From positions 1 to 37,549 of the forward strand of contig JAUSOD010000061.1 in NCBI GenBank assembly GCA_030656215.1: a stretch of 37,549 nucleotides of DNA. Direction: 5' to 3'. The notes under the pieces are model-generated. The model searched no databases. It saw only the letters and a list, made by a program, of their open reading frames with translations, and was not told the origin of the DNA. Source of the DNA: Azoarcus sp. (GTDB taxonomy: Bacteria; Pseudomonadota; Gammaproteobacteria; Burkholderiales; Rhodocyclaceae). This document shows positions 9,917-26,803 of this stretch, piece by piece (position 1 is the stretch's first letter; each line of letters begins with the position of its first letter). The position numbers and the translations under genes are program-made.

Positions 9917-10987
9917 TCAGTCCTGAATGGGGGTGCTGGCGGTAAGCACGGCATCGGGGGCCGCGGTCGCGGGGCTCCACGAGCGGGCGTCGCAGCCCAT
10001 GGTCAGCGGCGTCTCCAGCGCGCGGGCGGCACCGAGCAGGGCCGGGTAGGGCGCGTTGATGACGTAGGTCGGGACATCGGCCAGATAGGCGGCGAATCGT
10101 CCCTTGGCCTCGAAGCGCCGGCGGAAGTCGGAAGCGGCGAAAAAAGCACCGAATCGGGGCACGATGCCGCCGCCGATATACACCCCGCCGCGGGCGCCGA
10201 GGGTCAGCGCGAGATCGCCCGCCACGGTGCCGAGCATCGCGCAGAAGGTATGCAGGGTCTCGATGCAGATCGCGCAGCTGGCGGCGAGCCCGCGGGCGCT
10301 GATCTCGGCACTGCTGAGTTTAGCCGCCGGTTCGCCCGCCAGTGTGCGGATCGCATCGTGCAGTGCAACCAGGCCGGGGCCCGACAGCACGCGCTCGGCC
10401 GACACGTGTCCATAGCGTTCGGCAAGGAGGGCGATGATCCGCGCCTCGCGTGCGTCGGCCGCGGGCAGGGTGACGTGACCGCCTTCGCCGGCAAGCGGCA
10501 CGTGGTCGGCGCCGCACGGTACCAGACCGGAGATGCCCAGTCCGGTGCCGGCCCCTACCAGGCCGATCGCATGGCCCGGGAGCGCACTGCCACCACCGAC
10601 CTGCGTGCGTTCGTGTGGCTGCAGTTGCTGCAGCGACAGGGCGAGCGCGGTGAAGTCGTTGATCACGAGCAGCCGTTCCAGGCCGAGGCTGGCGCGCAGC
10701 GTCTCGACCGAGAATGCCCAGTGGTGATTGGTCATCGACACATGGTCGCCGGTGATCGGGGTGGCGATGCCGAACGCGGCAAGCGGCGGCACCGCAAGCC
10801 CTTCGAGCGCGAGGTAGTCGCAGATGGCCTCTTGCGGACCGTCGTAGTCGGCGCAGGGCAGGGTGCGGACATGGGTCGGCTGGGCACCGGGTGCGGCCAC
10901 GATCGCGAAGCGGGCATTGGTGCCGCCGATGTCGCCGACCAGGCGCGGATAGTGTTCAGCGCGTCGTTCAGAGTGTCCAGAAGACAT
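9917..10987 (-). CDS. glk: glucokinase (intact, stand-alone)
   Basis: This enzyme phosphorylates free glucose with ATP to glucose-6-phosphate in the cytoplasm, and belongs to the bacterial Glk family. The 356-residue protein keeps every canonical motif: [10 protein letters not shown] (phosphate 1), [10 protein letters not shown] with the catalytic Asp, [26 protein letters not shown] and [10 protein letters not shown] (phosphate 2). It is slightly longer than the E. coli enzyme (about 321 residues). The ATG at 10987 lies inside pgl (20-base overlap), which indicates translational coupling. The order zwf-pgl-glk-pgi fits glucose released from alpha-glucosides by the hydrolases of this window. 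It is the functional counterpart to the degenerate kinase domain fused to HexR at 15968-17887. Confidence 0.93.
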
Positions 10988-11663
10988 GGCAGGGCACCTG
11001 ATCCTGTTGAATGATGGTACGAACCGGAAAGGTTTCGACCGCTCCGGGTTTGAGGGCTTCGCACAGCACCGACCATTTGCCGGCGCCGGTGAAGTGCAGC
11101 GCGATCAGCCGGCTGTCGAGAAGGGCGGCCGGCGTCAGCGACAGGCGGTCGTGGGGCGCCTTGGCCGGCCGGATACCGATGCAGTCGGCGCAGGTGGCGC
11201 TCGATGGCGGCGGCAGCGTGTCGGCGGCGGGGAACAGCGAGGCCGTATGGCCGTCCTCGCCCATGCCCAGCACCACCACGTCGAAGGGACGCGGCAGCTC
11301 GGCGAGCGCGGCGCGGGCCGCATCGAGACCGGCCCACGGATCGGCGGCGCCGTTGTACAGGGGGATGAAACGCGCGGCGGCGGCCTTGTCCTGCAGCAAT
11401 ACGCTGCGGACGGTGCGCTCGTTGCTGTCCGCGTGATCGGGTGGTACCCAGCGATCGTCGGCCAGCGTGATGCAGACCCGATCCCATGCCAGGTCGGTGG
11501 CGGCGAGGCGGGCGAACAGGCCGCGCGGGGTACGCCCTCCGGATAGCACCAGGCTGGCGCTGCCACGCCGGGCGATGCCCTCGCGCAATTTTTCGACCAC
11601 CATCCCGGCCAGTGCGTCGTCCAGCGCGGAGGGGTCGGCGTAGCGCTTCAGTTCGAGTGCCAT
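10968..11663 (-). CDS. pgl: 6-phosphogluconolactonase
   Basis: This enzyme hydrolyses 6-phosphoglucono-delta-lactone, the product of Zwf, to 6-phosphogluconate. The 231-residue protein has SLVLSGGRTPRGLF near the N-terminus, ITLADDRWVPPDHADSNER, VVLGMGEDGHTASLFP and LHFTGAGKW, the normal motif order of the DevB/SOL family. Its ATG at 11663 overlaps the zwf stop codon by one base (TAATG), and its end overlaps glk by 20 bases, so zwf, pgl and glk form one tightly coupled operon. Confidence 0.95.
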   Translation of the reverse strand: MALELKRYADPSALDDALAGMVVEKLREGIARRGSASLVLSGGRTPRGLFARLAATDLAWDRVCITLADDRWVPPDHADSNERTVRSVLLQDKAAAARFIPLYNGAADPWAGLDAARAALAELPRPFDVVVLGMGEDGHTASLFPAADTLPPPSSATCADCIGIRPAKAPHDRLSLTPAALLDSRLIALHFTGAGKWSVLCEALKPGAVETFPVRTIIQQDQVPCHVFWTL

Positions 11664-13123
11664 TACAGCTCCTCGTGCCAGTGGAAGCCCTCGCGGCCCG
11701 GCAGTGCGGTCGATGCGGCCGGTCCCCAGGTGCCAGCGGTGTAGGTCTTGGGCGGATCACTCGACTCGTTCCAGCTCGACATGATCGGCTCGACCCACTT
11801 CCACGCTGCCTCCTGTTCGTCGCGACGCACGAACAGGGTCAGGTTGCCGCGCATCACGTCCATCAGCAGGCGCTCGTAGGCATCGAGACGACGGCTCTGG
11901 GAGCCCTCGGCAAAGTCGAGGTCGAGCGAGACCGGGTTGAGCACCATCTGGTCGCCCGGACGCTTGGCCTGCAAGTGCAGTTTTACGCTCTCGTCGGGCT
12001 GCATCGTGATCACCAGGCGGTTGTTCTGCAGTGCCGCCGCGCGCTTGCCGAAAATGGAGTGGGGCACGGCGCGGAAGTTGATGACGATCTCCGCCAGCCT
12101 CTCCTGCATGCGTTTGCCGGTGCGCAGATAGAAGGGCACGCCCGCCCAGCGCCAGGTGTCGATGTTGGCCTGCAGGGCGACGAAGGTTTCGGTGCGGCTG
12201 GCGGCTGCGACTCCGGGCTCTTCCAGATAGCCCGCCACCGGCTGGCCGCTGCTGGCGCCGGCACGGTACTGGCCGCGCACGGTGCGCAGCGGCACTTCGT
12301 CGGTCGCGATCGGGCGCAGCGCACGCAGGATCTTGAGCTTTTCGTCGCGAACGGCGTCGGCGTCGATCGAGGCCGGCGGCTCCATCGCGACAATGCACAG
12401 CAGCTGCAGCAGGTGGTTCTGCACCATGTCGCGCAGGGCGCCGGTCTTGTCGTAGAACTCGGCGCGCTGTTCGACGCCGATCTGCTCGGCCACCGTGATC
12501 TGCACGTCGCTGATCCATTCGCGGCGCCACAGCGGCTCGAACAGGGCATTGCCGAAACGCAGTGCGAGCAGGTTCTGCACCGACTCCTTGCCCAGGTAGT
12601 GATCGATGCGATAGATCTGCGCCTCACCGAAATAGCGTCCGACTTCGTCGTTGATCTGGCGCGAGGAGGCGAGATCGTGTCCGAGCGGTTTCTCCAGCAC
12701 CACCCGACTTTCGGGCGTGATCAGGCCTGTCTCGTGAAGGTTGCGGCAGATCGACGTGAACAGTGCGGGTGCGGTGGATAAGTAATAGACCTGGCTGCGG
12801 CGTCCGACATCGCCCAGGCATTCGGCCAGTGCGCCGAAGGTGGCGGGATCGCGGGCATCGAGCGGACGATATTGGATGCGCGCTTCGAAGGCGGGCCACT
12901 GTGCTTCGTCGAAGTCGGTCTTGAGAAAGCGCCGGCACTGCTCGAGCGCGATCCTGCGGTATTCGGCGGTGTCGATCGACTCGCGGGCAATGCCAATGAT
13001 CGACACATCGCTTGCGAGCATGGCGTGGTTGTGCAGTTGATAGAGCGCCGGGAGCAGCTTGCGCATCACCAGGTCGCCGGTGCCGCCGAAGAGCACGACA
13101 TCTTGTCCGGGTTGTTCTGACAT
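11663..13123 (-). CDS. zwf: glucose-6-phosphate 1-dehydrogenase
   Basis: Zwf oxidises glucose-6-phosphate to 6-phosphogluconolactone and is the entry step of the oxidative pentose phosphate and Entner-Doudoroff routes. The 486-residue product opens with the dinucleotide fold VVLFGGTGDLVMRKLLPALY. It has the active-site signature RIDHYLGKESVQNLLALRF (substrate Lys and catalytic His region) and the FYLRTGKRM motif. The start at 13123 (MSEQPGQD) is chosen over 13222 because GAGGT lies six bases upstream and the extra 33 residues would run through the promoter/operator. NADP versus NAD preference cannot be decided by eye. It is first in the minus-strand block and is controlled by a promoter with a HexR-like operator in its spacer (13169-13197). 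Confidence 0.96.
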   Translation of the reverse strand: MSEQPGQDVVLFGGTGDLVMRKLLPALYQLHNHAMLASDVSIIGIARESIDTAEYRRIALEQCRRFLKTDFDEAQWPAFEARIQYRPLDARDPATFGALAECLGDVGRRSQVYYLSTAPALFTSICRNLHETGLITPESRVVLEKPLGHDLASSRQINDEVGRYFGEAQIYRIDHYLGKESVQNLLALRFGNALFEPLWRREWISDVQITVAEQIGVEQRAEFYDKTGALRDMVQNHLLQLLCIVAMEPPASIDADAVRDEKLKILRALRPIATDEVPLRTVRGQYRAGASSGQPVAGYLEEPGVAAASRTETFVALQANIDTWRWAGVPFYLRTGKRMQERLAEIVINFRAVPHSIFGKRAAALQNNRLVITMQPDESVKLHLQAKRPGDQMVLNPVSLDLDFAEGSQSRRLDAYERLLMDVMRGNLTLFVRRDEQEAAWKWVEPIMSSWNESSDPPKTYTAGTWGPAASTALPGREGFHWHEEL

Positions 13124-13168
13124 CTTGACCTCGCTGGGTAAGGGTGCGCCGAAGCGCTGTTGAATCAA

Positions 13169-13197
13169 ACTATAAGTAGTAAGACTACAGAAAGCAA
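13169..13197 (-). promoter_or_regulatory. zwf promoter with HexR-like operator in the spacer
   Basis: On the minus strand, TTGCTT (-35, 13192-13197) and TATAGT (-10, 13169-13174) are exactly 17 bases apart. The 15-base operator TGTAGTCTTACTACT (13175-13189, five paired positions per arm) fills the spacer. A transcript would begin near 13162, about 38 bases before the zwf start. Binding by HexR is inferred from the motif and the linked hexR gene. Confidence 0.65.
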
Positions 13198-13269
13198 GAG
13201 GGAAATTTAACTTTTCTTGCAAGCAGTGCAGATGTCCCGGGATCTCGTGCGAGCTGTGTGGATCTATCT

Positions 13270-13339: not shown

Positions 13340-13368
13340 TTGATTTTTGAATGTAGTTAAACTACACT
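13340..13368 (+). promoter_or_regulatory. edd promoter with perfect HexR-like palindrome
   Basis: The 15-base sequence TGTAGTTAAACTACA (13352-13366) is a perfect palindrome of two 7-base arms around one base. A plausible promoter, TTGATT (13340-13345), 17 bases, TACACT (13363-13368), places the operator in the spacer and over the -10. The operator call is strong; the exact promoter boxes are weaker (four of six matches each). Confidence 0.6.
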
Positions 13369-13398
13369 ATAGCCACATCTTGATCAGTGAGTACTGCG

Positions 13399-15222
13399 AT
13401 GTCCATTCATCCCACCCTTCAATCCGTCACCGAGCGCATCCGGGCACGCAGCGCGGCGTCGCGCCAGCGCTATCTGCAGCGTATCGACGACGCTTCGCGT
13501 GTCGGCCCCCTGCGCGGGTCCCTGTCATGTACCAATCTTGCGCACGGTTTCGCGGCGGCACCGGCGGGCGACAAGATCATGCTGCGCGAGCAGCGCCGGC
13601 CGAACATCGCCATTGTGTCTTCCTACAATGACATGCTGTCGGCACACCAGCCGATGCAGGTGTATCCGGAGTGGATCAAGGAGGCGGCGCGCGAGGCCGG
13701 CGCCACCGCACAGTTCGCCGGCGGCGTGCCGGCGATGTGCGACGGAGTCACCCAGGGTCAGCCCGGCATGGAGTTGTCGCTGTTTTCACGCGATGTGATC
13801 GCGATGGCCACCGCGGTGGCGCTGTCGCACAACATGTTCGACGCCGCACTGTGCCTGGGGGTGTGCGACAAGATTGTTCCCGGATTGCTGATCGGCGCGC
13901 TCGCTTTCGGCCATCTGCCGACGATCTTCGTGCCTGCGGGGCCGATGGGCTCGGGTCTGTCGAACAAGGAGAAGGCGGCAATCCGCCAGCGCTACGCCGC
14001 GGGCGAAATCGGCAAGGCCGAGCTGCTCGAGGCTGAAACCCGCGCTTACCATTCGGCCGGCACCTGCACCTTCTACGGCACCGCCAACAGCAACCAGATG
14101 TTGATGGAGGTGATGGGTCTGCATCTGCCGGGCGCGGCCTTCGTTTCACCAGGTACCGCGTTGCGTGAGGCGCTGACGCGCGAGGCGGCGCGCCAGGCCG
14201 CAGTGATCAGCCGCGAGGGCAGCCGATTTACACCGGTCGGGCGGATGATCGACGAACGCAGCATCGTCAATGCCATCGTCGGCCTGCTGGCGACCGGCGG
14301 CTCCACCAATCACACCCTCCATCTGGTGGCAATCGCACGCGCGGCGGGCATCGTCATCGACTGGAACGACTTCGACGAGCTGTCGTCCTGCGTGCCCCTA
14401 CTGGCCCGCGTCTATCCCAACGGCAGCGCGGACGTGAATGCCTTTCACGCCGCGGGCGGAACGGGTTTTCTCATCGGCGCCCTGCTCGATGCCGATCTGT
14501 TGCATGAAGACGTCGATACGGTGGTCGGTCGCGGCCTGTCGCGGTACCGGACGCAGGCGGTGCTCGAGGACGGGCGGCTGCAGTGGCTGCCGAGCCCGGC
14601 CGAGAGCGGTGATACCAGCGTGCTGGTTGCGGCGGGGCAGGCCTTTTCCGCCGATGGCGGGCTCAAGGTACTCGACGGCAACCTGGGGCGCGCAGTCACC
14701 AAGGTGTCGGCGGTGAGTCCGGATCTGCGGGTGGTCGAAGCGCCGGCGCGCGTGTTCGAGTCGCAGGAGGGGCTGATCGAGGCCTACAAGCGCGGTGAGC
14801 TCGACGGCGATTTCGTCGCCGTGGTGCGCTTCCAGGGCCCCAAAGCCAACGGCATGCCCGAGCTCCACGGCCTGACCCCGACGCTGGCCAACCTGCTCGA
14901 CAAGGGGCAGCGCGTGGCGCTGGTGACCGATGGCCGCATGTCGGGCGCGTCGGGCAAGGTGCCGTCGGCGATTCATGTGACCCCCGAAGCCTGCGATGGC
15001 GGCGCGCTCGCCCGCGTGCGCGACGGCGACATCATTCGCGTCGATGCGGAGACGGGCGTGCTGGAGGTCAAGCTCTCCGCCGACGAGCTGGCGCGGCGGC
15101 CGCTTGCAACGGCTGATCTCGCCGGCAATCAGACCGGCATGGGGCGCGAGCTGTTCGGCAGCTTCCGCGCGGTCGTGTCCGGAGCAGAAGACGGGGCGAT
15201 GACGTTCGGGCTGTCCGCCTGA
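13399..15222 (+). CDS. edd: 6-phosphogluconate dehydratase
   Basis: Edd is the first dedicated Entner-Doudoroff enzyme and dehydrates 6-phosphogluconate to 2-keto-3-deoxy-6-phosphogluconate (KDPG). It belongs to the IlvD/Edd iron-sulfur dehydratase family. The 607-residue protein has the family signatures [17 protein letters not shown] and [18 protein letters not shown]. It also has [32 protein letters not shown] and [20 protein letters not shown], which contain Cys residues able to hold the cluster. The ATG at 13399 is preferred; a GTG at 13387 in frame has no better ribosome site and adds four residues. Length is normal for Edd (about 600). It heads the plus-strand edd-eda-hexR operon, divergent from zwf. 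Confidence 0.96.
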
Positions 15223-15269
15223 GCGCCGTCGAGACTAAGCGAAAACAGAATCCACCATAGAGGTTGTTC

Positions 15270-15911
15270 ATGGACTCAAAGGAAATGATGCTGGATGGCA
15301 TCCTGGGGCTCGGCCCCGTCATGCCGGTGCTGGTGATCGAAAATGTGGCCGACGCCGTACCGCTGGCGCGGGCGCTGGTCGATAACGGCATTCGTGTGCT
15401 GGAGGTCACCTTGCGTACCCCCAATGCGTTGGCTGCGATCGCCTGCCTGGCCGAAGCCGTGCCCGAGGCGGTGGTGGGCGCCGGCACGGTCGTGTCGCCC
15501 GAGCAGCTTGCTGCGGTCGAACGTGCCGGAGCGCGCTTCGCGGTGTCGCCCGGGCTTACCCCCAGGCTTATCGCCGCCGCCCGCGATACCGCGCTGCCGC
15601 TGCTGCCGGGGGTGATGACGGCGTCCGAGGCGATGACCGCGGCGGAGAACGGCTTCACCCGCCTGAAACTGTTCCCGGCCCAGCAGGCTGGCGGCGTAGG
15701 CATGCTCAAGGCGCTGTATGGTCCCTTGCCCGAGCTGCGCTTCTGCCCGACCGGGGGCGTGACAGTGGATAATGCGTGCGAGTTTCTCGCGCTGCCGAAT
15801 GTGATGTGCGTTGGCGGGTCGTGGCTCGCCCCCGATGCATTGATGCGTTCCCGGGACTGGGCCGAGATCGGGCGGCGCGCCCGGGCAGCATCGGTGCTAC
15901 GCCCTCGCTGA
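15270..15911 (+). CDS. eda: KDPG aldolase (2-keto-3-deoxy-6-phosphogluconate aldolase)
   Basis: Eda splits KDPG into pyruvate and glyceraldehyde-3-phosphate, completing the upper Entner-Doudoroff pathway. The 213-residue class I aldolase has [13 protein letters not shown] with the catalytic Glu, [34 protein letters not shown] with the Schiff-base Lys, and [11 protein letters not shown] for phosphate binding. The ATG at 15270 is chosen because GAGG lies seven bases upstream; a TTG at 15264 in the same frame would add two residues. Forty-seven bases separate it from edd. The glucokinase-like/HexR gene follows after 56 bases. Confidence 0.95.
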
Positions 15912-15967: not shown

Positions 15968-17887
15968 ATGGGACGAGTAGAGGATCTGAACCAGGATCTG
16001 GACCAGGATCTGGGCCGGCTGAGGCGCACGCAAGCGTATGCCGGCGGACCGCGGCTGATCGCCAATGTCGGCGCGAGCAGCGCCCGGTTCGCGCTGGAGA
16101 CGGCCCCCGGGCGTTTCGTGCAGGCTCGCAGCTTTGCCTGTTCGGATCATGCCGGCATCGTCGAGGTCTGCCGTGCCTATCTGGCGACCATCGAAGGCCC
16201 CGCGCCGATTCACGGGGTGATGGCGCTGGCCACGCCGATCGAGGGCGACCTGGTGCGCCTGACCAATCGCGACTGGATGTTCTCGATCGAAGCCACCCGC
16301 GCCGAACTCGGTTTGCAGACCCTGCTGGCGGTAAATGATTTCATGGCCATGGCCATGGCTTTGCCGCGGCTGCGCGATGAGGACCGGCACCAGGTCGGGG
16401 GCGGCAGTCCGCGTGCCGACGGCGTGATCGGCTTGCTGGGCGCCAGCACCGGGCTCGGTGCATCGGCGCTGATACCGCGTGGCGGGCGCTGGATCACGCT
16501 GGCATCCGAGGGCGGGCATGTGAGTTTTTCGCCCTCCAACGAAACCGAACTCACCATCCTGCGCCACGCCTGGAAAACCTGGCCTCACGTGTCGGCCGAG
16601 CGCCTGATTTCGGCCTCCGGGCTGGTTCTGATGCACGAGGCGCTGGCGGCTGCCGAAGGGCACGCAGCCGCATCGGCGGCACTGGGCCCGGAGGAGATCA
16701 TTCGGCGCGGACTGGAGGAGGGCGACGCGTTGTGCGTGAGGGTGCTCGAGTGCTTCTGCGAGATGCTGGGCACTCAGGCCGCGAACCTGGCGGTGACGCT
16801 TAACGCGACCGGTGGAATCTATGTCGGCAGCACGCTCATTCGCCTCCTCGGCGATTTTTTCGCGCGCTCGAATTTTCGTCGTGCCTTCGAGAACAAGGGG
16901 CGCTTCTCCGGGTTTGCCGCATCGGTGCCGACCTACATGATCCTGACCGACCAGTGCTCCCTGCTCGGCGCGGCCCAAGTGCTGCGCGACCATCTCGACG
17001 ATCAGTCCGGATCCGGCATGCTGCTGGATCGCATCCGCGCCGAGATGTCGACCCTGACCCCGGCCGAGCGCCGCGTGGCGGCCCTGGTGCTGGAGCAGCC
17101 ACGCACGGTGCTCAACGAACCGGTGGCCGGGATCGCGGCGAAGGCCGACGTGAGCCAGCCGACGGTGATCCGCTTCTGTCGCTCGCTCGGCCTGCAGGGC
17201 CTGTCGGACTTCAAGCTCAAGCTCGCGTCCGGGCTCACTGGCGCGGTGCCGGTGCAGCACAGTCAGGTCCGGGTGGACGACAATGCCGGCGACCTCGTCA
17301 GCAAGGTGCTGGACAACACCACCTCGGCAATCATGAAGCTGCGCGACGAGCTCGATGCAAAGGCGGTGGATAGTGCCATCGGCATGCTGTCCGCCGCGCG
17401 CCGTATCGAACTCTACGGGGTGGGCAACTCGAGCGTGGCCGCGCTCGATGGGCAGCACAAGTTCTTCCGCTTCAGTATCCCGACCAATGCCTACATCGAC
17501 TCCCACATCCAGTTGATGGCGGCGGGCATGCTCGCCAAGGGTGACGTCGTGGTGGCGATCTCGAAGTCGGGCAATCTGCCCGAGATCCTGCAGGCCGCCG
17601 ACGCAGCCCTGCAAGCCGGCGCCAGCGTGATCGCCATCACCGCCGCGGGTTCGCCGCTGGCGCGCCGCGCCACGGTGGCGCTCGAGGTGAAGCATCAGGA
17701 GCAGGGCGCGGGCTATCTGTCGATGGTGTCCCGCATCCTGCATCTGCTACTGATCGACATCCTTGCTGTCGGCGTTGCGATGCGCCGGATTTCCACGGCC
17801 GGCGAAGCGCGGGAGGAAACCGACCTGCATCGCGAACTCGAGCTGCTGCAGGCGCGGTTTGAGGCGCTCATCTCGCACGCGAGCTAG
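15968..17887 (+). CDS. hexR: fusion of a glucokinase-like domain and HexR (RpiR-family) regulator
   Basis: The 639-residue protein has three parts. A Glk-family domain spans about 27-345, an RpiR-type helix-turn-helix about 350-425 (LTPAERRVAALVLEQ ... VSQPTVIRFCRSLGLQG), and a SIS sugar-phosphate domain about 465-600 (IELYGVGNSSVAALDG ... DVVVAISKSGNLPEILQ). HexR proteins repress zwf/edd-type genes and release DNA on binding KDPG; such Glk-HexR fusions are known in Burkholderiales. Here the kinase motifs are altered: NVGASSARF (33-41) replaces DxGGTNARF, GASTGLG (158-164) replaces GAGTGLG or GPGTGLG, SASGL replaces SGPGL (215-219), and YVGSTLIR (285-292) replaces IGGGIVPR. Residues expected to touch glucose remain (Asn123, Asp124, Glu181, His184, Glu211). 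I infer a sensor or weak kinase. The start at 15968 has GGAAAG upstream; the longer frame from 15776 overlaps eda. Confidence 0.9.
   Translation: MGRVEDLNQDLDQDLGRLRRTQAYAGGPRLIANVGASSARFALETAPGRFVQARSFACSDHAGIVEVCRAYLATIEGPAPIHGVMALATPIEGDLVRLTNRDWMFSIEATRAELGLQTLLAVNDFMAMAMALPRLRDEDRHQVGGGSPRADGVIGLLGASTGLGASALIPRGGRWITLASEGGHVSFSPSNETELTILRHAWKTWPHVSAERLISASGLVLMHEALAAAEGHAAASAALGPEEIIRRGLEEGDALCVRVLECFCEMLGTQAANLAVTLNATGGIYVGSTLIRLLGDFFARSNFRRAFENKGRFSGFAASVPTYMILTDQCSLLGAAQVLRDHLDDQSGSGMLLDRIRAEMSTLTPAERRVAALVLEQPRTVLNEPVAGIAAKADVSQPTVIRFCRSLGLQGLSDFKLKLASGLTGAVPVQHSQVRVDDNAGDLVSKVLDNTTSAIMKLRDELDAKAVDSAIGMLSAARRIELYGVGNSSVAALDGQHKFFRFSIPTNAYIDSHIQLMAAGMLAKGDVVVAISKSGNLPEILQAADAALQAGASVIAITAAGSPLARRATVALEVKHQEQGAGYLSMVSRILHLLLIDILAVGVAMRRISTAGEAREETDLHRELELLQARFEALISHAS
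15983..16013 (+). repeat. 12-base tandem repeat in the 5' end of the hexR fusion
   Basis: GATCTGAACCAG and GATCTGGACCAG follow one another, then a partial third copy (GATCTGG). This encodes the repeated DLNQ/DLDQ/DLG at residues 6-16. It lies before the kinase-like domain, so copy-number changes would keep the frame and alter only the N-terminal tail. Confidence 0.55.
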
Positions 17888-22032: not shown

Positions 22033-22061
22033 TTGCGCTTTAAAAGTAGTTTTACTACTAT
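22033..22061 (+). promoter_or_regulatory. HexR-like operator with possible rightward promoter
   Basis: AGTAGTTTTACTACT (22045-22059) is a 15-base palindrome with six paired positions per arm. On the plus strand TTGCGC (22033-22038), 17 bases, TACTAT (22056-22061) gives the same geometry as the edd promoter, but no plus-strand gene follows: the lacI 3' end (stop at 22111) lies ahead in the opposite sense. It may instead act as a second, upstream operator for the reductase-ppc promoter about 186 bases away. Confidence 0.5.
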
Positions 22062-23292: not shown

Positions 23293-23336
23293 TTTACATT
23301 CAAAGCGCTTTGAACTAGCATCCAAACCGCTTTGAA
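23293..23336 (+). promoter_or_regulatory. alpha-glucoside operon promoter with tandem LacI operators O1 and O2
   Basis: TTTACA (-35, 23293-23298), 17 bases, TAGCAT (-10, 23316-23321) form a promoter whose spacer is almost exactly O1, the perfect palindrome TTCAAAGCGCTTTGAA (23299-23314). O2, TCCAAACCGCTTTGAA (23321-23336), is an imperfect copy covering the likely start of transcription. The two centres are 22 bases apart, about two helical turns, so two dimers would sit on one face. This is a standard repressor-blocked promoter for the hydrolase/transport operon. Confidence 0.7.
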
Positions 23337-23424
23337 TGATTTTATGAGTCTATTAATGCTGCTGATTGGAGTGCCGGGCCAAAGCCACGGCATGCGCCTG
23401 CCAGCCGGCCTCGAGGAGTCGAGT

Positions 23425-25074
23425 GTGGAAACGAAGTGGTGGCATGACGCCGTGGTGTATCAGATCTATCCGCGCAGCTTCAGCGATGCCAACGGTGATG
23501 GCATCGGCGATCTGGCGGGGATCATCGACAAGCTTGATTACCTGCAGGTCCTCGGGATTAACGTGATCTGGTTGTCGCCGGTGTTCCGCTCGCCGATGGA
23601 CGACAACGGCTACGACATCTCCGACTACTGCGACATTGCGCCCGAGTTCGGCACCCTCGACGAGATGGAGCGGCTGATCACCGAAGCTGCGCAGCGTCAC
23701 ATCCGCATCGTGATGGACCTGGTCGTCAATCACACGTCCGACGAACATCCCTGGTTCGTGGAGGCGAGAAAGTCGAAGGACAATCCCTACCGCGACTACT
23801 ACATCTGGCGCGCACCGCGCGCTGACGGCACGCCGCCGGATGCGCAGCGTGCAAGTTTTGGTGGCAGTGCGTGGGAATTCGACGAGGCCACCGGCGAGTA
23901 TTACTACCACCTGTTCTCCCGCCGCCAGCCGGACCTCAACTGGGCCAACCCGAAAGTCCGGGAAGAGATCTACCGGATGATGAACTGGTGGCTGGACAAG
24001 GGCATCGGTGGCTTCCGCATGGACGTGATCGACCTGATCGGCAAGGACGTCGACCGCGGCATCACCGCAAACGGACCGAACCTGCACCCCTACCTGCAGG
24101 AGATGAACGCGGCGACCTTCGGTGACCGCGATGTGCTCACTGTTGGCGAGACCTGGGCTGCGAACCCGGAGGTCGCGAAACTCTATTCCGACCCGCGCCG
24201 AGCGGAATTGTCGATGGTGTTCCAGTTCGAGCACGTGACCCTCACCCATGACCCGGTCGAAGGCAAATGGAAGCCGCGGCCCTTCGATCTGCTGGCGCTC
24301 AAGGAGGTCATGAGCAAATGGCAGACCGAACTTGCCGACGTGGGCTGGAACTCGCTGTTCTGGAACAACCACGACCTGCCGCGCGCGGTGTCGAGGTACG
24401 GCGATCCGGAACGCTATCGGGTCGAGTCGGCAAAGATGCTCGCCACCGCACTGCATTTCCTCAAAGGCACGCCCTACATCTACCAGGGCGAGGAGATCGG
24501 CATGACCAATGTGCGCTTCGACTCCATCGATGATTACCAGGACATCGAGTCGCTGGGTCTGTACCGGGAGCGCACTGCGGCCGGGGTGGCGCATGAAGCC
24601 ATGATGGAAGGCATCCATGCCAACGGCCGCGACAACGCCCGTACCCCGATGCAGTGGGATACGGGCAGCAACGCCGGCTTCTCGCGCGGCAGGCCGTGGC
24701 TGAAGGTGAATCCCAACTACCGCGAGATCAACGTGGTGGCCGCACTCGCCGATCCGGGCTCGATCCTTCATCACTACCGCAGGCTGATTCGGCTGCGCAA
24801 GGAACGTGCGGCCATCGTCCATGGTGACTACCAGCCGCTGTTCGACGCGCATCCGCAGGTTTTTGCCTATCAACGCCGCCTTGGCGACGAGCGCATCGTC
24901 GTCATCAACAACTTTTCCCCCGAGCCGGTCGCGCTCGATGTGCCGGAAGAACTGCGCGGGCTTGCGGGCGAATGCCTGGTGAGCAACTACGCGCCCCATC
25001 AACAACTCGGCGAGCGCCTGGCACTGCAGGCCTACGAGTCCTTCGCCATCGCTGCCCGCAGCGCGCTGGCCTGA
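23425..25074 (+). CDS. GH13 alpha-glucosidase, oligo-1,6-glucosidase/TreC-like
   Basis: This cytoplasmic glycoside hydrolase (549 residues, no signal peptide) releases glucose from short alpha-glucosides. The family motifs are in order: AVVYQIYPRSFSDANGDGIG, DLVVNHTSDEHPWF, GIGGFRMDVIDLIG with the nucleophile Asp, VLTVGETWA with the acid/base Glu, WNNHDLPRAVSRYG with the transition-state Asp, and the GRDNARTPMQWD region. Val directly follows the nucleophile, which in this group is associated with alpha-1,6 activity (isomaltose-type) rather than alpha-1,4. The start is a GTG at 23425 preceded by GAGGAG six bases upstream. An upstream in-frame ATG (23332) lies within operator O2 and is unlikely. 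It is first in the LacI-controlled operon; trehalose-6-phosphate hydrolase is an alternative, but no PTS is seen. Confidence 0.88.
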   Translation: METKWWHDAVVYQIYPRSFSDANGDGIGDLAGIIDKLDYLQVLGINVIWLSPVFRSPMDDNGYDISDYCDIAPEFGTLDEMERLITEAAQRHIRIVMDLVVNHTSDEHPWFVEARKSKDNPYRDYYIWRAPRADGTPPDAQRASFGGSAWEFDEATGEYYYHLFSRRQPDLNWANPKVREEIYRMMNWWLDKGIGGFRMDVIDLIGKDVDRGITANGPNLHPYLQEMNAATFGDRDVLTVGETWAANPEVAKLYSDPRRAELSMVFQFEHVTLTHDPVEGKWKPRPFDLLALKEVMSKWQTELADVGWNSLFWNNHDLPRAVSRYGDPERYRVESAKMLATALHFLKGTPYIYQGEEIGMTNVRFDSIDDYQDIESLGLYRERTAAGVAHEAMMEGIHANGRDNARTPMQWDTGSNAGFSRGRPWLKVNPNYREINVVAALADPGSILHHYRRLIRLRKERAAIVHGDYQPLFDAHPQVFAYQRRLGDERIVVINNFSPEPVALDVPEELRGLAGECLVSNYAPHQQLGERLALQAYESFAIAARSALA

Positions 25075-25096
25075 CCCCGTGGAGAGGATGTCTACA

Positions 25097-26803
25097 ATGA
25101 AAGAGCAAGGCAGTACGGCTGTGACGACGCAATGGTGGAAGGAGGCGGTGGCCTACCAGATCTACCCGCGCAGCTTCATGGATTCCAACGGCGATGGCAT
25201 TGGCGATCTCAATGGCATCACCGCGCGCCTCGACTATCTCAAATCGCTCGGTATCGACGTGATCTGGATCTGCCCGATGTACAAGTCGCCGAACGACGAT
25301 AACGGCTACGACATCGCCGACTACCAGGCGATCATGGAGGAGTTCGGCACCATGGCCGACTTCGATCGCCTGCTGGCCGAGGTGCACCGCCGGGGCATGC
25401 GCCTGATCCTCGATCTGGTGGTCAACCACACCAGCGACGAGCACGCCTGGTTCATCGAGTCGCGTTCGTCCCGTGACAACCCCAAGCGCGACTGGTACGT
25501 GTGGCGCGATGGCAAGGGCGGTGTCGGCGGTACCCCGGGCGACGAGCCGAACAACTGGGAGAGCATCTTCAAGGGCTCGGCGTGGAAGTACGACGAGACT
25601 ACCGGGCAATATTTCCTGCACCTGTTCTCGACCCGCCAGCCCGACCTGAACTGGGAGAACCTCGAGGTTCGCGCCGCAGTGAACCAGATGGTGTGCTGGT
25701 GGCTGGACAAGGGCATCGACGGCTTTCGCCTTGACGCGGTGAGCCACATGAAGAAGGTTCCGGACCTGCCCGACATGCCCAATCCGCAGGGACTCGAGCA
25801 TGTTCCGAGCCAGGACATGCACATGAATGTCGGTGGTGTGCTCGAGTACATGGACGACCTGTGCCGCAACAGCTTCCGCCACTACGACATCATGACCGTG
25901 GGCGAAGCCAACGGGGTGTCGGCAGAGCAGGCGCGCGACTGGGTCGGGACCGAACACCAGCGGCTCAACATGATCTTCCAGTTCGAGCACCTGCTGCTGT
26001 GGTCGAACGATCCGCAGGCCGGGCTCGATCTGGTGGCACTGAAGAAGATTTTCAGCCGCTGGCAGGACACCCTGCACGGGGTCGGCTGGAACGCGCTCTT
26101 TCTCGAGAACCACGATATCCCGCGCATCGTGTCGAAATGGGGCGATGTCGATCGCTACTGGCGCGAGAGTGCGACCGCGCTGGCGACGATGTACTTCCTG
26201 ATGGAGGGTACGCCGTTCATCTATCAGGGCCAGGAGATCGGGATGACCAATACCCGCTTCGACGGCATCGAGGATTTCGACTGCATCTTCGCCCGGAACG
26301 AGTTCGCGCTGCGACGGGCGCGGGGCGAGACCGACGAACAGATACTCGGCGCGCTCGCGGTGACGGCGCGCGACAACTCGCGCACCCCGATGCAATGGGA
26401 TGCGTCGTCGAACGCCGGTTTCACCACCGGCACACCGTGGCTGAAGGCGAACCCGAACTATCCGGCGATCAACGTCGCGCAGCAGGATGCGGACCCCGAT
26501 TCCGTCCTCAACTACCACCGCCGCCTGATCGCATTGCGCAAGGCCGAGCGGGTGCTGGTGCACGGGCGCTATGCGCTGCTGATGGAGGACGACCCGCAGA
26601 TCTATGCCTACACCCGCAGTCTGGGTGAGGCCCGGATCGTCGTGATCGCTAACCTGTCCGGCGAAACGGCGCGCTACACGCACGACGAATTTGCGCTGCG
26701 CCATGCCGGCCTGCTGCTCGCAAACCACGCGGTCGAGCCGCACCCGCCGACCGACACGCTCGCTCTGCTGCCGTACGAGGCGCGGGTGTACCGCATCGAC
26801 TGA
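25097..26803 (+). CDS. GH13 alpha-glucosidase, second copy (alpha-1,4 type)
   Basis: This is a 568-residue cytoplasmic GH13 enzyme paralogous to its upstream neighbour, which ends 22 bases earlier. Motifs: AVAYQIYPRSFMDSNGDGIG, DLVVNHTSDEHAWF, GIDGFRLDAVSHMKK with the nucleophile Asp, IMTVGEANGV with the acid/base Glu, LENHDIPRIVSKWG, and ARDNSRTPMQWD. Ala follows the nucleophile, the pattern linked with alpha-1,4 substrates such as maltose and maltotriose, whereas the neighbour has Val. The start at 25097 (MKEQGS) is preferred, with GGAGAGG nine bases before it. The ATG at 25088 touches that site, and the GTG at 25079 lies before it. Specificity is inferred from motif rules, not shown. Confidence 0.88.
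   Translation: MKEQGSTAVTTQWWKEAVAYQIYPRSFMDSNGDGIGDLNGITARLDYLKSLGIDVIWICPMYKSPNDDNGYDIADYQAIMEEFGTMADFDRLLAEVHRRGMRLILDLVVNHTSDEHAWFIESRSSRDNPKRDWYVWRDGKGGVGGTPGDEPNNWESIFKGSAWKYDETTGQYFLHLFSTRQPDLNWENLEVRAAVNQMVCWWLDKGIDGFRLDAVSHMKKVPDLPDMPNPQGLEHVPSQDMHMNVGGVLEYMDDLCRNSFRHYDIMTVGEANGVSAEQARDWVGTEHQRLNMIFQFEHLLLWSNDPQAGLDLVALKKIFSRWQDTLHGVGWNALFLENHDIPRIVSKWGDVDRYWRESATALATMYFLMEGTPFIYQGQEIGMTNTRFDGIEDFDCIFARNEFALRRARGETDEQILGALAVTARDNSRTPMQWDASSNAGFTTGTPWLKANPNYPAINVAQQDADPDSVLNYHRRLIALRKAERVLVHGRYALLMEDDPQIYAYTRSLGEARIVVIANLSGETARYTHDEFALRHAGLLLANHAVEPHPPTDTLALLPYEARVYRID

Follow-up and report, generated by a model that had tools for sequence, protein, structure and literature searches.

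A glucokinase-HexR fusion with an altered nucleotide site beside the Entner-Doudoroff genes of Azoarcus sp.: a probable regulator with an inactive kinase module

Described fusions and related sugar-kinase regulators

The closest described relatives of the protein considered here are the bifunctional Glk/RpiR (HexR) fusions of family NF010701, which it resembles in domain order and homology and among which the altered clade to which it belongs is found to branch. It is encoded in a stretch of Azoarcus sp. DNA of 37,549 nucleotides, the whole of which we call the window. One paper (PMC12568896) names, in a passage on the in-silico pathway of Paraburkholderia xenovorans, a bifunctional glucokinase-HexR that uses ATP. 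Unlike the ordinary fusions, which keep Asp33 and Gly160 in 113 of 113 cases, the altered clade has a broken nucleotide site. The KDPG-responsive regulators HexR and RccR of the RpiR family share the HTH and SIS halves with the window's protein, and the palindrome at our locus equals the RccR site as it appears in an excerpt of the paper cited below; these regulators are standalone proteins, however, whereas the window's HexR half is fused behind a kinase domain.

Yeast Gal3 is an inactive galactokinase serving as a sensor, and its likeness to our protein would lie in the retention of an inactive sugar kinase for sensing, alongside an active paralogue. Gal3 requires ATP and acts via a partner protein, whereas the window's fusion has an altered nucleotide site and carries its DNA-binding domain within the same chain. 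In the ROK repressors (Mlc, NagC and Lmo0178) a sugar-kinase fold has likewise been made into a regulator, with the HTH preceding the kinase domain, and both Mlc and Lmo0178 are among the fold matches of our protein. They belong to a different Pfam family, however, and have no SIS domain, which the window's fusion does have; the ROK domain, which we take to be PF00480, is absent among the fusion's four Pfam matches (E 0.01). NagC and Mlc are identified as ROK repressors in a passage of PMC12696579. Among the open-licence papers listed by searches on Glk-HexR fusions or inactive glucokinase regulators, none, judged by title and abstract opening, concerns a kinase-dead Glk-HexR fusion.

For comparison, 84,980 species genomes were scanned with short peptides, and the best 80 of 203 related stretches correspond to 74 loci. 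Together with later genome searches this gave 161 kinase rows, which came down to 152 once 7 repeats and 2 entries with too little of the kinase domain had been removed. This collection, assembled by similarity, is rich in close Oxalobacteraceae sequences rather than being a census. The altered state occurs in 4 of these 152 rows: the window; L006, a Zoogloeaceae MAG (also G035); L007, a Rhodocyclaceae MAG (also G093) of one genus with L006; and L008, a MAG titled Thauera sp., in which the fusion is cut by the contig end. The clade is thus known from four sequences only, three of them from MAG records; its occurrence in four separate assemblies rules out a sequencing error or a one-genome oddity. 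The other 148 rows comprise 113 with a HexR half and 35 whose available sequence lacks a HexR half (some of these being cut fusions). Draws of 395, 399, 369 and 394 genomes (by family, order, class and family again, with larger groups sampled and the fourth draw largely repeating earlier genomes) yielded no clade members besides G000, G035 and G093, membership being judged by score gap (668 vs 404 bits in one draw) and by the motifs of loci-level matches, not of every match.

A preliminary description of this DNA had credited other such fusions with a canonical kinase motif, which calls for correction: 81 of the 113 read DIGATHAR, not DIGGTNAR, and two lack the catalytic Asp. Among the 35 other Glk rows, D(I/V)GGTNAR occurs in 28 and DIGGTNAR in 25. 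The prevalence of DIGATHAR (residues 33-40, numbered as in the window's fusion) hints at an altered kinase activity in the fusions generally. The nine commonest patterns also include isolated relaxations of the other motifs: a single fusion has SASGI, two have VGGAIVP and one has IGGSIPP. The fusions L032 (10001-11740) and L115 (frame matched from 1501, plus strand) have VNGF and VNNF, respectively, instead of VNDF, the catalytic Asp being replaced by Gly in the former and by Asn in the latter; both keep Asp33, and L032 has a separate Glk at 16510. Judging from these sequences, catalysis may have been lost more than once among Glk-HexR fusions, by another route in L032 and L115. A separate observation is that two Glk-HexR fusions lie 6.5-10 kb apart on one strand in L012, L014, L016, L020, L021, L023, L026, L030, L048, L052 and L053; these two-fusion loci are mostly from Oxalobacteraceae, and an alpha-amylase-family gene lies between the fusions in L012, L016 and L052, the three inspected.

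The fusion gene and its neighbourhood

The genes around the fusion are ordered pyk, pgi, glk, pgl and zwf on the minus strand, then the divergent edd, eda and fusion on the plus strand, the names pyk, pgi, pgl, zwf, edd and eda being assigned by us from sequence likeness:

9917..10987, minus strand: separate intact glk in the divergent operon (Pfam and NCBIfam)
11663..13222, minus strand: zwf, head of the divergent operon (homologues in relatives)
13387..15222, plus strand: edd (6-phosphogluconate dehydratase), same strand as the fusion, GTG start
15264..15911, plus strand: eda (KDPG aldolase), same strand as the fusion
15968..17887, plus strand: Glk-HexR fusion with a kinase half predicted to be inactive, 639 aa (open reading frame, Pfam and NCBIfam searches)
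16055..16990, plus strand: glucokinase domain PF02685, residues 30-341 (Pfam E 1.8e-88)
17021..17230, plus strand: HTH_6 (RpiR) DNA-binding domain, residues 352-421 (Pfam)
17384..17770, plus strand: SIS domain, residues 473-601 (Pfam and alignment to RccR)

The preliminary description had placed the fusion at 15968-17887 and an intact glk at 9917-10987. A 639-codon open frame does occupy the former interval on the plus strand and follows eda after a gap of 56 bp, and edd, eda and the fusion probably constitute one operon; the glk is also real, on the minus strand, and has the canonical IGGGIVPR. A GTG at 15776 is an upstream alternative start for the fusion frame, the ATG at 15968 being favoured by its MGR start, which is matched in L006 and L007; for zwf, the true start is probably an internal ATG (MSEQPGQD). 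The fusion is a single chain that runs from glucokinase through an RpiR-type HTH to SIS. Its nearest NCBIfam model is the bifunctional regulator/glucokinase NF010701 (PRK14101), with 764.9 bits over residues 21-616 and thus below the curated cut-off of 920 bits. The domain order of that class, glucokinase and then HTH_6 and SIS, is present, and the intact kinase motifs of the bifunctional Glk-RpiR class are, by motif alignment, missing. With the NCBIfam HexR model PRK11302 the fusion scores 232 bits, below the cut-off of 296.

The divergent region between zwf and edd contains two palindromes, both of which fit TGTAGT-N3-ACTACA:

13175..13189, no strand: palindrome AGTAGTAAGACTACA, zwf side
13352..13366, no strand: palindrome TGTAGTTAAACTACA, edd side, ending 20 bp before the edd GTG

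Two sites within one mismatch were seen in 0 of 100 shuffles of the window; the TGTAGT form was picked after inspection of the zwf-edd region and only later recognised as matching the published RccR site. In the 5.08-Mb genome there are three places within one mismatch of TGTAGT-N3-ACTACA, two of which are the zwf-edd pair, and 20 places for the same pattern read backwards. A similar pair is present in L008 (at 7256 and 7066) and in G035 (L172, at 1333 and 1508, with one mismatch each), and hence in all three clade members for which the zwf-edd region is available. The forms TGTAAT-N3-ATTACA and TGTART-N5-YTACA were rejected as sites, since their counts, equalled or exceeded in 7 and 42 of 100 shuffles, are close to chance. 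According to a passage of PMC5489143, the 15-bp RccR site is TGTAGT/ACTACA, the same sequence as the window palindrome. The fusion protein is predicted to bind the zwf-edd pair. A third, weaker palindrome with two mismatches (AGTAGTTTTACTACT, at 22045-22059) lies between the aldo/keto reductase and LacI genes.

In L008 the gene order is that of the window, with neighbours 71-90% identical. A separate intact glk is present in two of the four clade genomes (in the divergent operon of the window and of L008) and was not found in G035 and G093, both incomplete MAGs. In G035 edd and zwf are divergent and the contig ends about 350 bp past zwf, so that the missing glk says little there; in G093 (52% complete) neither zwf nor edd was found. 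Among five genomes of the window's genus the fusion occurs in G000 only; G115 combines edd (68%) with a standalone HexR, and G067, G150 and G180 gave no fusion or HexR match at E 1e-40 and have edd-like genes only 35-36% identical. This five-genome distribution indicates that the fusion or HexR goes with edd in the genus. Downstream of the fusion are a LacI-type regulator, two GH13 enzymes, a maltose-type ABC transporter, LamB and a trehalase. The two adjacent GH13 genes (23332-26803) score above the PRK10933 phosphotrehalase subfamily cut-off and below the TreC equivalog cut-off. It is plausible that uptake and intracellular hydrolysis of di- or oligosaccharides supply free cytoplasmic glucose, to which the inactive kinase domain might respond.

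The kinase and HexR halves

Compared with Glk of E. coli and with the intact Glk encoded in the window, the kinase half has DIGGTNARF changed to NVGASSARF, GAGTGLG to GASTGLG, SGPGL to SASGL and YIGGGIVPR to YVGSTLIRL. E. coli N99, D100, E157, H160 and E187 (the numbering of 9pyu chains plus one), which we take to be the glucose contacts, align with N123, D124, E181, H184 and E211 of the fusion. The names given to the four Glk motifs below (phosphate-1, phosphate-2, adenosine loop etc.) are likewise assumed:

16064..16090, plus strand: altered phosphate-1 motif NVGASSARF, residues 33-41 (Asp to Asn at 33)
16334..16339, plus strand: kept sugar contact N123 and catalytic Asp D124
16439..16459, plus strand: altered phosphate-2 motif GASTGLG, residues 158-164
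16508..16519, plus strand: kept sugar contacts E181 and H184 (EGGH)
16598..16624, plus strand: kept E211, then altered SASGL, residues 211-219 (SASGL 215-219)
16820..16843, plus strand: altered adenosine loop YVGSTLIR, residues 285-292

All four altered motifs and all five retained sugar-site residues thus stand as first reported. The preliminary description had further proposed that the fusions be aligned and the motifs mapped on a tree, and had regarded loss of the sugar-site residues in close relatives as evidence against a sensor. In the kinase-half tree (69 rows, thinned at 83% identity) the altered state forms a single clade of four (support 100/100), and the five residues are intact in every member. 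The clade is nested in an 11-row group with seven ordinary fusions (96/90), L115 being its weakly supported sister (84/51), and its stem measures 0.82 changes per column. The HexR-half tree, in which eight terminal branches are long and 19 of the 43 forks are starred, unites the same four (100/100) on a stem of 0.78; since this stem is about as long, a burst of change limited to the kinase half is ruled out.

At the phosphate-1 Asp position all 4 clade members have Asn, whereas each of the 113 other fusions and each of the 35 other Glk rows has Asp; Asp33 and Gly160 are both substituted in all four and in 0 of the 148 other kinases. Because three further genomes share this state and neither residue is ever replaced in the 148 others, the altered motifs exceed chance. 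N123, E181, H184 and E211 are kept in 148/148 other rows, and D124 in 146/148. Among the 84 kinase positions conserved at 95% or more in the 148, the four clade members all keep 61; a further 11 are mixed and 12 (33, 37, 126, 128, 160, 216, 279, 288, 289, 292, 306 and 316) are changed in all four. At ten of these twelve, the exceptions being 37 and 126, the new residue is identical across the clade (N33, M128, S160, A216, N279, S288, T289, R292, A306 and F316). The changed positions number 7 among 21 conserved nucleotide-motif positions as against 5 of 63 elsewhere (Fisher p 0.008, with motif ranges defined after the data were seen). A loss of kinase activity is, from these motifs, well supported. 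The probability that 5 of 5 sugar contacts survive by chance, given the general retention, is 0.19; taken alone, their retention is therefore weak evidence for the proposed glucose binding. Moreover, since T126 and L128 (close to the catalytic Asp), R306 and Y316 are replaced in all four, the pocket may have changed its ligand.

The altered kinase domain is under ordinary constraint and is selectively maintained. For five of the six clade pairs (all but L007/L008) its dN/dS is 0.145, 0.206, 0.213, 0.234 and 0.210 (Nei-Gojobori), within the 0.031-0.294 of seven motif-intact fusion pairs, two of which have dS near or past saturation; the intact glk gives 0.242 between the window and L008, and the HexR half 0.089-0.293 for the same five clade pairs. 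The two halves also diverge in step, the kinase/HexR path ratio being 0.49-1.28 in 6 clade pairs vs 0.41-2.24 in 12 ordinary pairs, and the kinase half is open in all four members. Both the dN/dS values and the relative divergence disfavour decay of the kinase half.

The HexR half is well conserved: 28 of 29 conserved positions in the HTH part (350-425) and 43 of 51 in the SIS part are kept in all four, and 3 in the latter are changed in all, L008, which lacks the last part, being counted only where letters exist. Its best solved relatives are the P. aeruginosa RccR chains 8ju9 and 8k3b, the second with KDPG. The serines that we assume to contact KDPG in the SIS domain, as in P. putida HexR, have counterparts in GNSS 486-489 and ISKSG 531-535 (RccR alignment). 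In an AlphaFold2 full-length model from 32 sequences (mean pLDDT 79.1, pTM 0.52) the kinase half matches glucose-bound E. coli Glk 1sz2 (TM 0.92 by target length) and the C-terminal half matches RccR (8ju9, 8k3b) and other RpiR proteins; at this pTM the relative placement of the halves is not reliable. Of the two E. coli structures, the glucose-bound one is closer to the model than the free one is, a difference that we do not count as evidence, coming as it does from a single model.

Proposed role and alternatives

The fusion is very probably a regulator with a dead kinase module. As the best explanation, about which we are evenly divided, we propose an Entner-Doudoroff repressor in which the SIS domain responds to KDPG and the dead kinase half gives a glucose-type second input. 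Such a protein would repress the Entner-Doudoroff genes locally, as a one-component regulator. Its HexR half would bind both TGTAGT-N3-ACTACA palindromes of the zwf-edd region, and would release the DNA once the SIS domain is occupied by KDPG or a similar phosphosugar. The kinase half would no longer bind or use ATP, phosphorylation being done by the separate Glk, but would still close around a sugar, most likely glucose, and the sugar-bound state would be passed to the repressor as its second input. The binding of both glucose and KDPG, the direction of the effect and the communication between the halves are all predictions of this scheme. That the kinase module senses glucose is, from its sequence, our leading though tentative reading. 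A single chain that takes two sugar inputs, free glucose at the dead Glk (the start of the pathway) and KDPG at the SIS domain (its committed intermediate), is possible, with some doubt on our part.

Selection on a domain that has lost its motifs might also reflect a scaffold, in which the dead kinase half determines oligomerisation or binds the intact Glk, making Glk itself, rather than the sugar, what the repressor senses. The intact Glk encoded in the divergent operon of the window and L008 fits this idea, as does a retention of the five contacts no better than chance for conserved positions; but in a pure scaffold the sugar contacts would be as dispensable as the nucleotide site, which is lost, whereas every one of them persists in all four members, and glk was not found in the (incomplete) genomes G035 and G093. 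We consider it unlikely, if worth keeping in mind. A pocket remodelled for some other small ligand, such as a hexose phosphate, gluconate or KDPG, would account for ten new residues fixed in all four, which resemble a new site more than a loss, and for R292, which adds a positive charge to the former adenosine loop; the five unchanged glucose contacts speak against it, and we regard it as quite improbable.

The idea that the kinase half is in decay and persists through its attachment to the repressor draws on the lost motifs, the separate glk and the long stem, but it is hard to reconcile with a dN/dS of 0.145-0.234, divergence in step with the HexR half, a frame open in all four, 61 of 84 conserved positions kept and a HexR-half stem of nearly equal length; it is very improbable. 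No more credible is a working glucokinase whose nucleotide site is unusual or which draws on a different phosphoryl donor: catalytic D124 and the sugar contacts are indeed kept and the fold model fits glucose-bound E. coli Glk, but the phosphate-1 Asp and Gly160 are gone throughout the clade and in none of the 148 others, the adenosine loop is altered, and a separate intact glk exists.

The automatic name "bifunctional glucokinase" would probably be wrong for the altered clade, and perhaps for the two D124-less fusions. If the glucose reading is true, the repressor would compute whether incoming glucose really flows through the Entner-Doudoroff route, and would be a bacterial counterpart of Gal3. 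It would then be a clean case of a metabolic enzyme turned into a sensor within the repressor of its own pathway, and this in the E. coli-type glucokinase family, not in ROK, with motif-intact fusions and an intact paralogue available for comparison.
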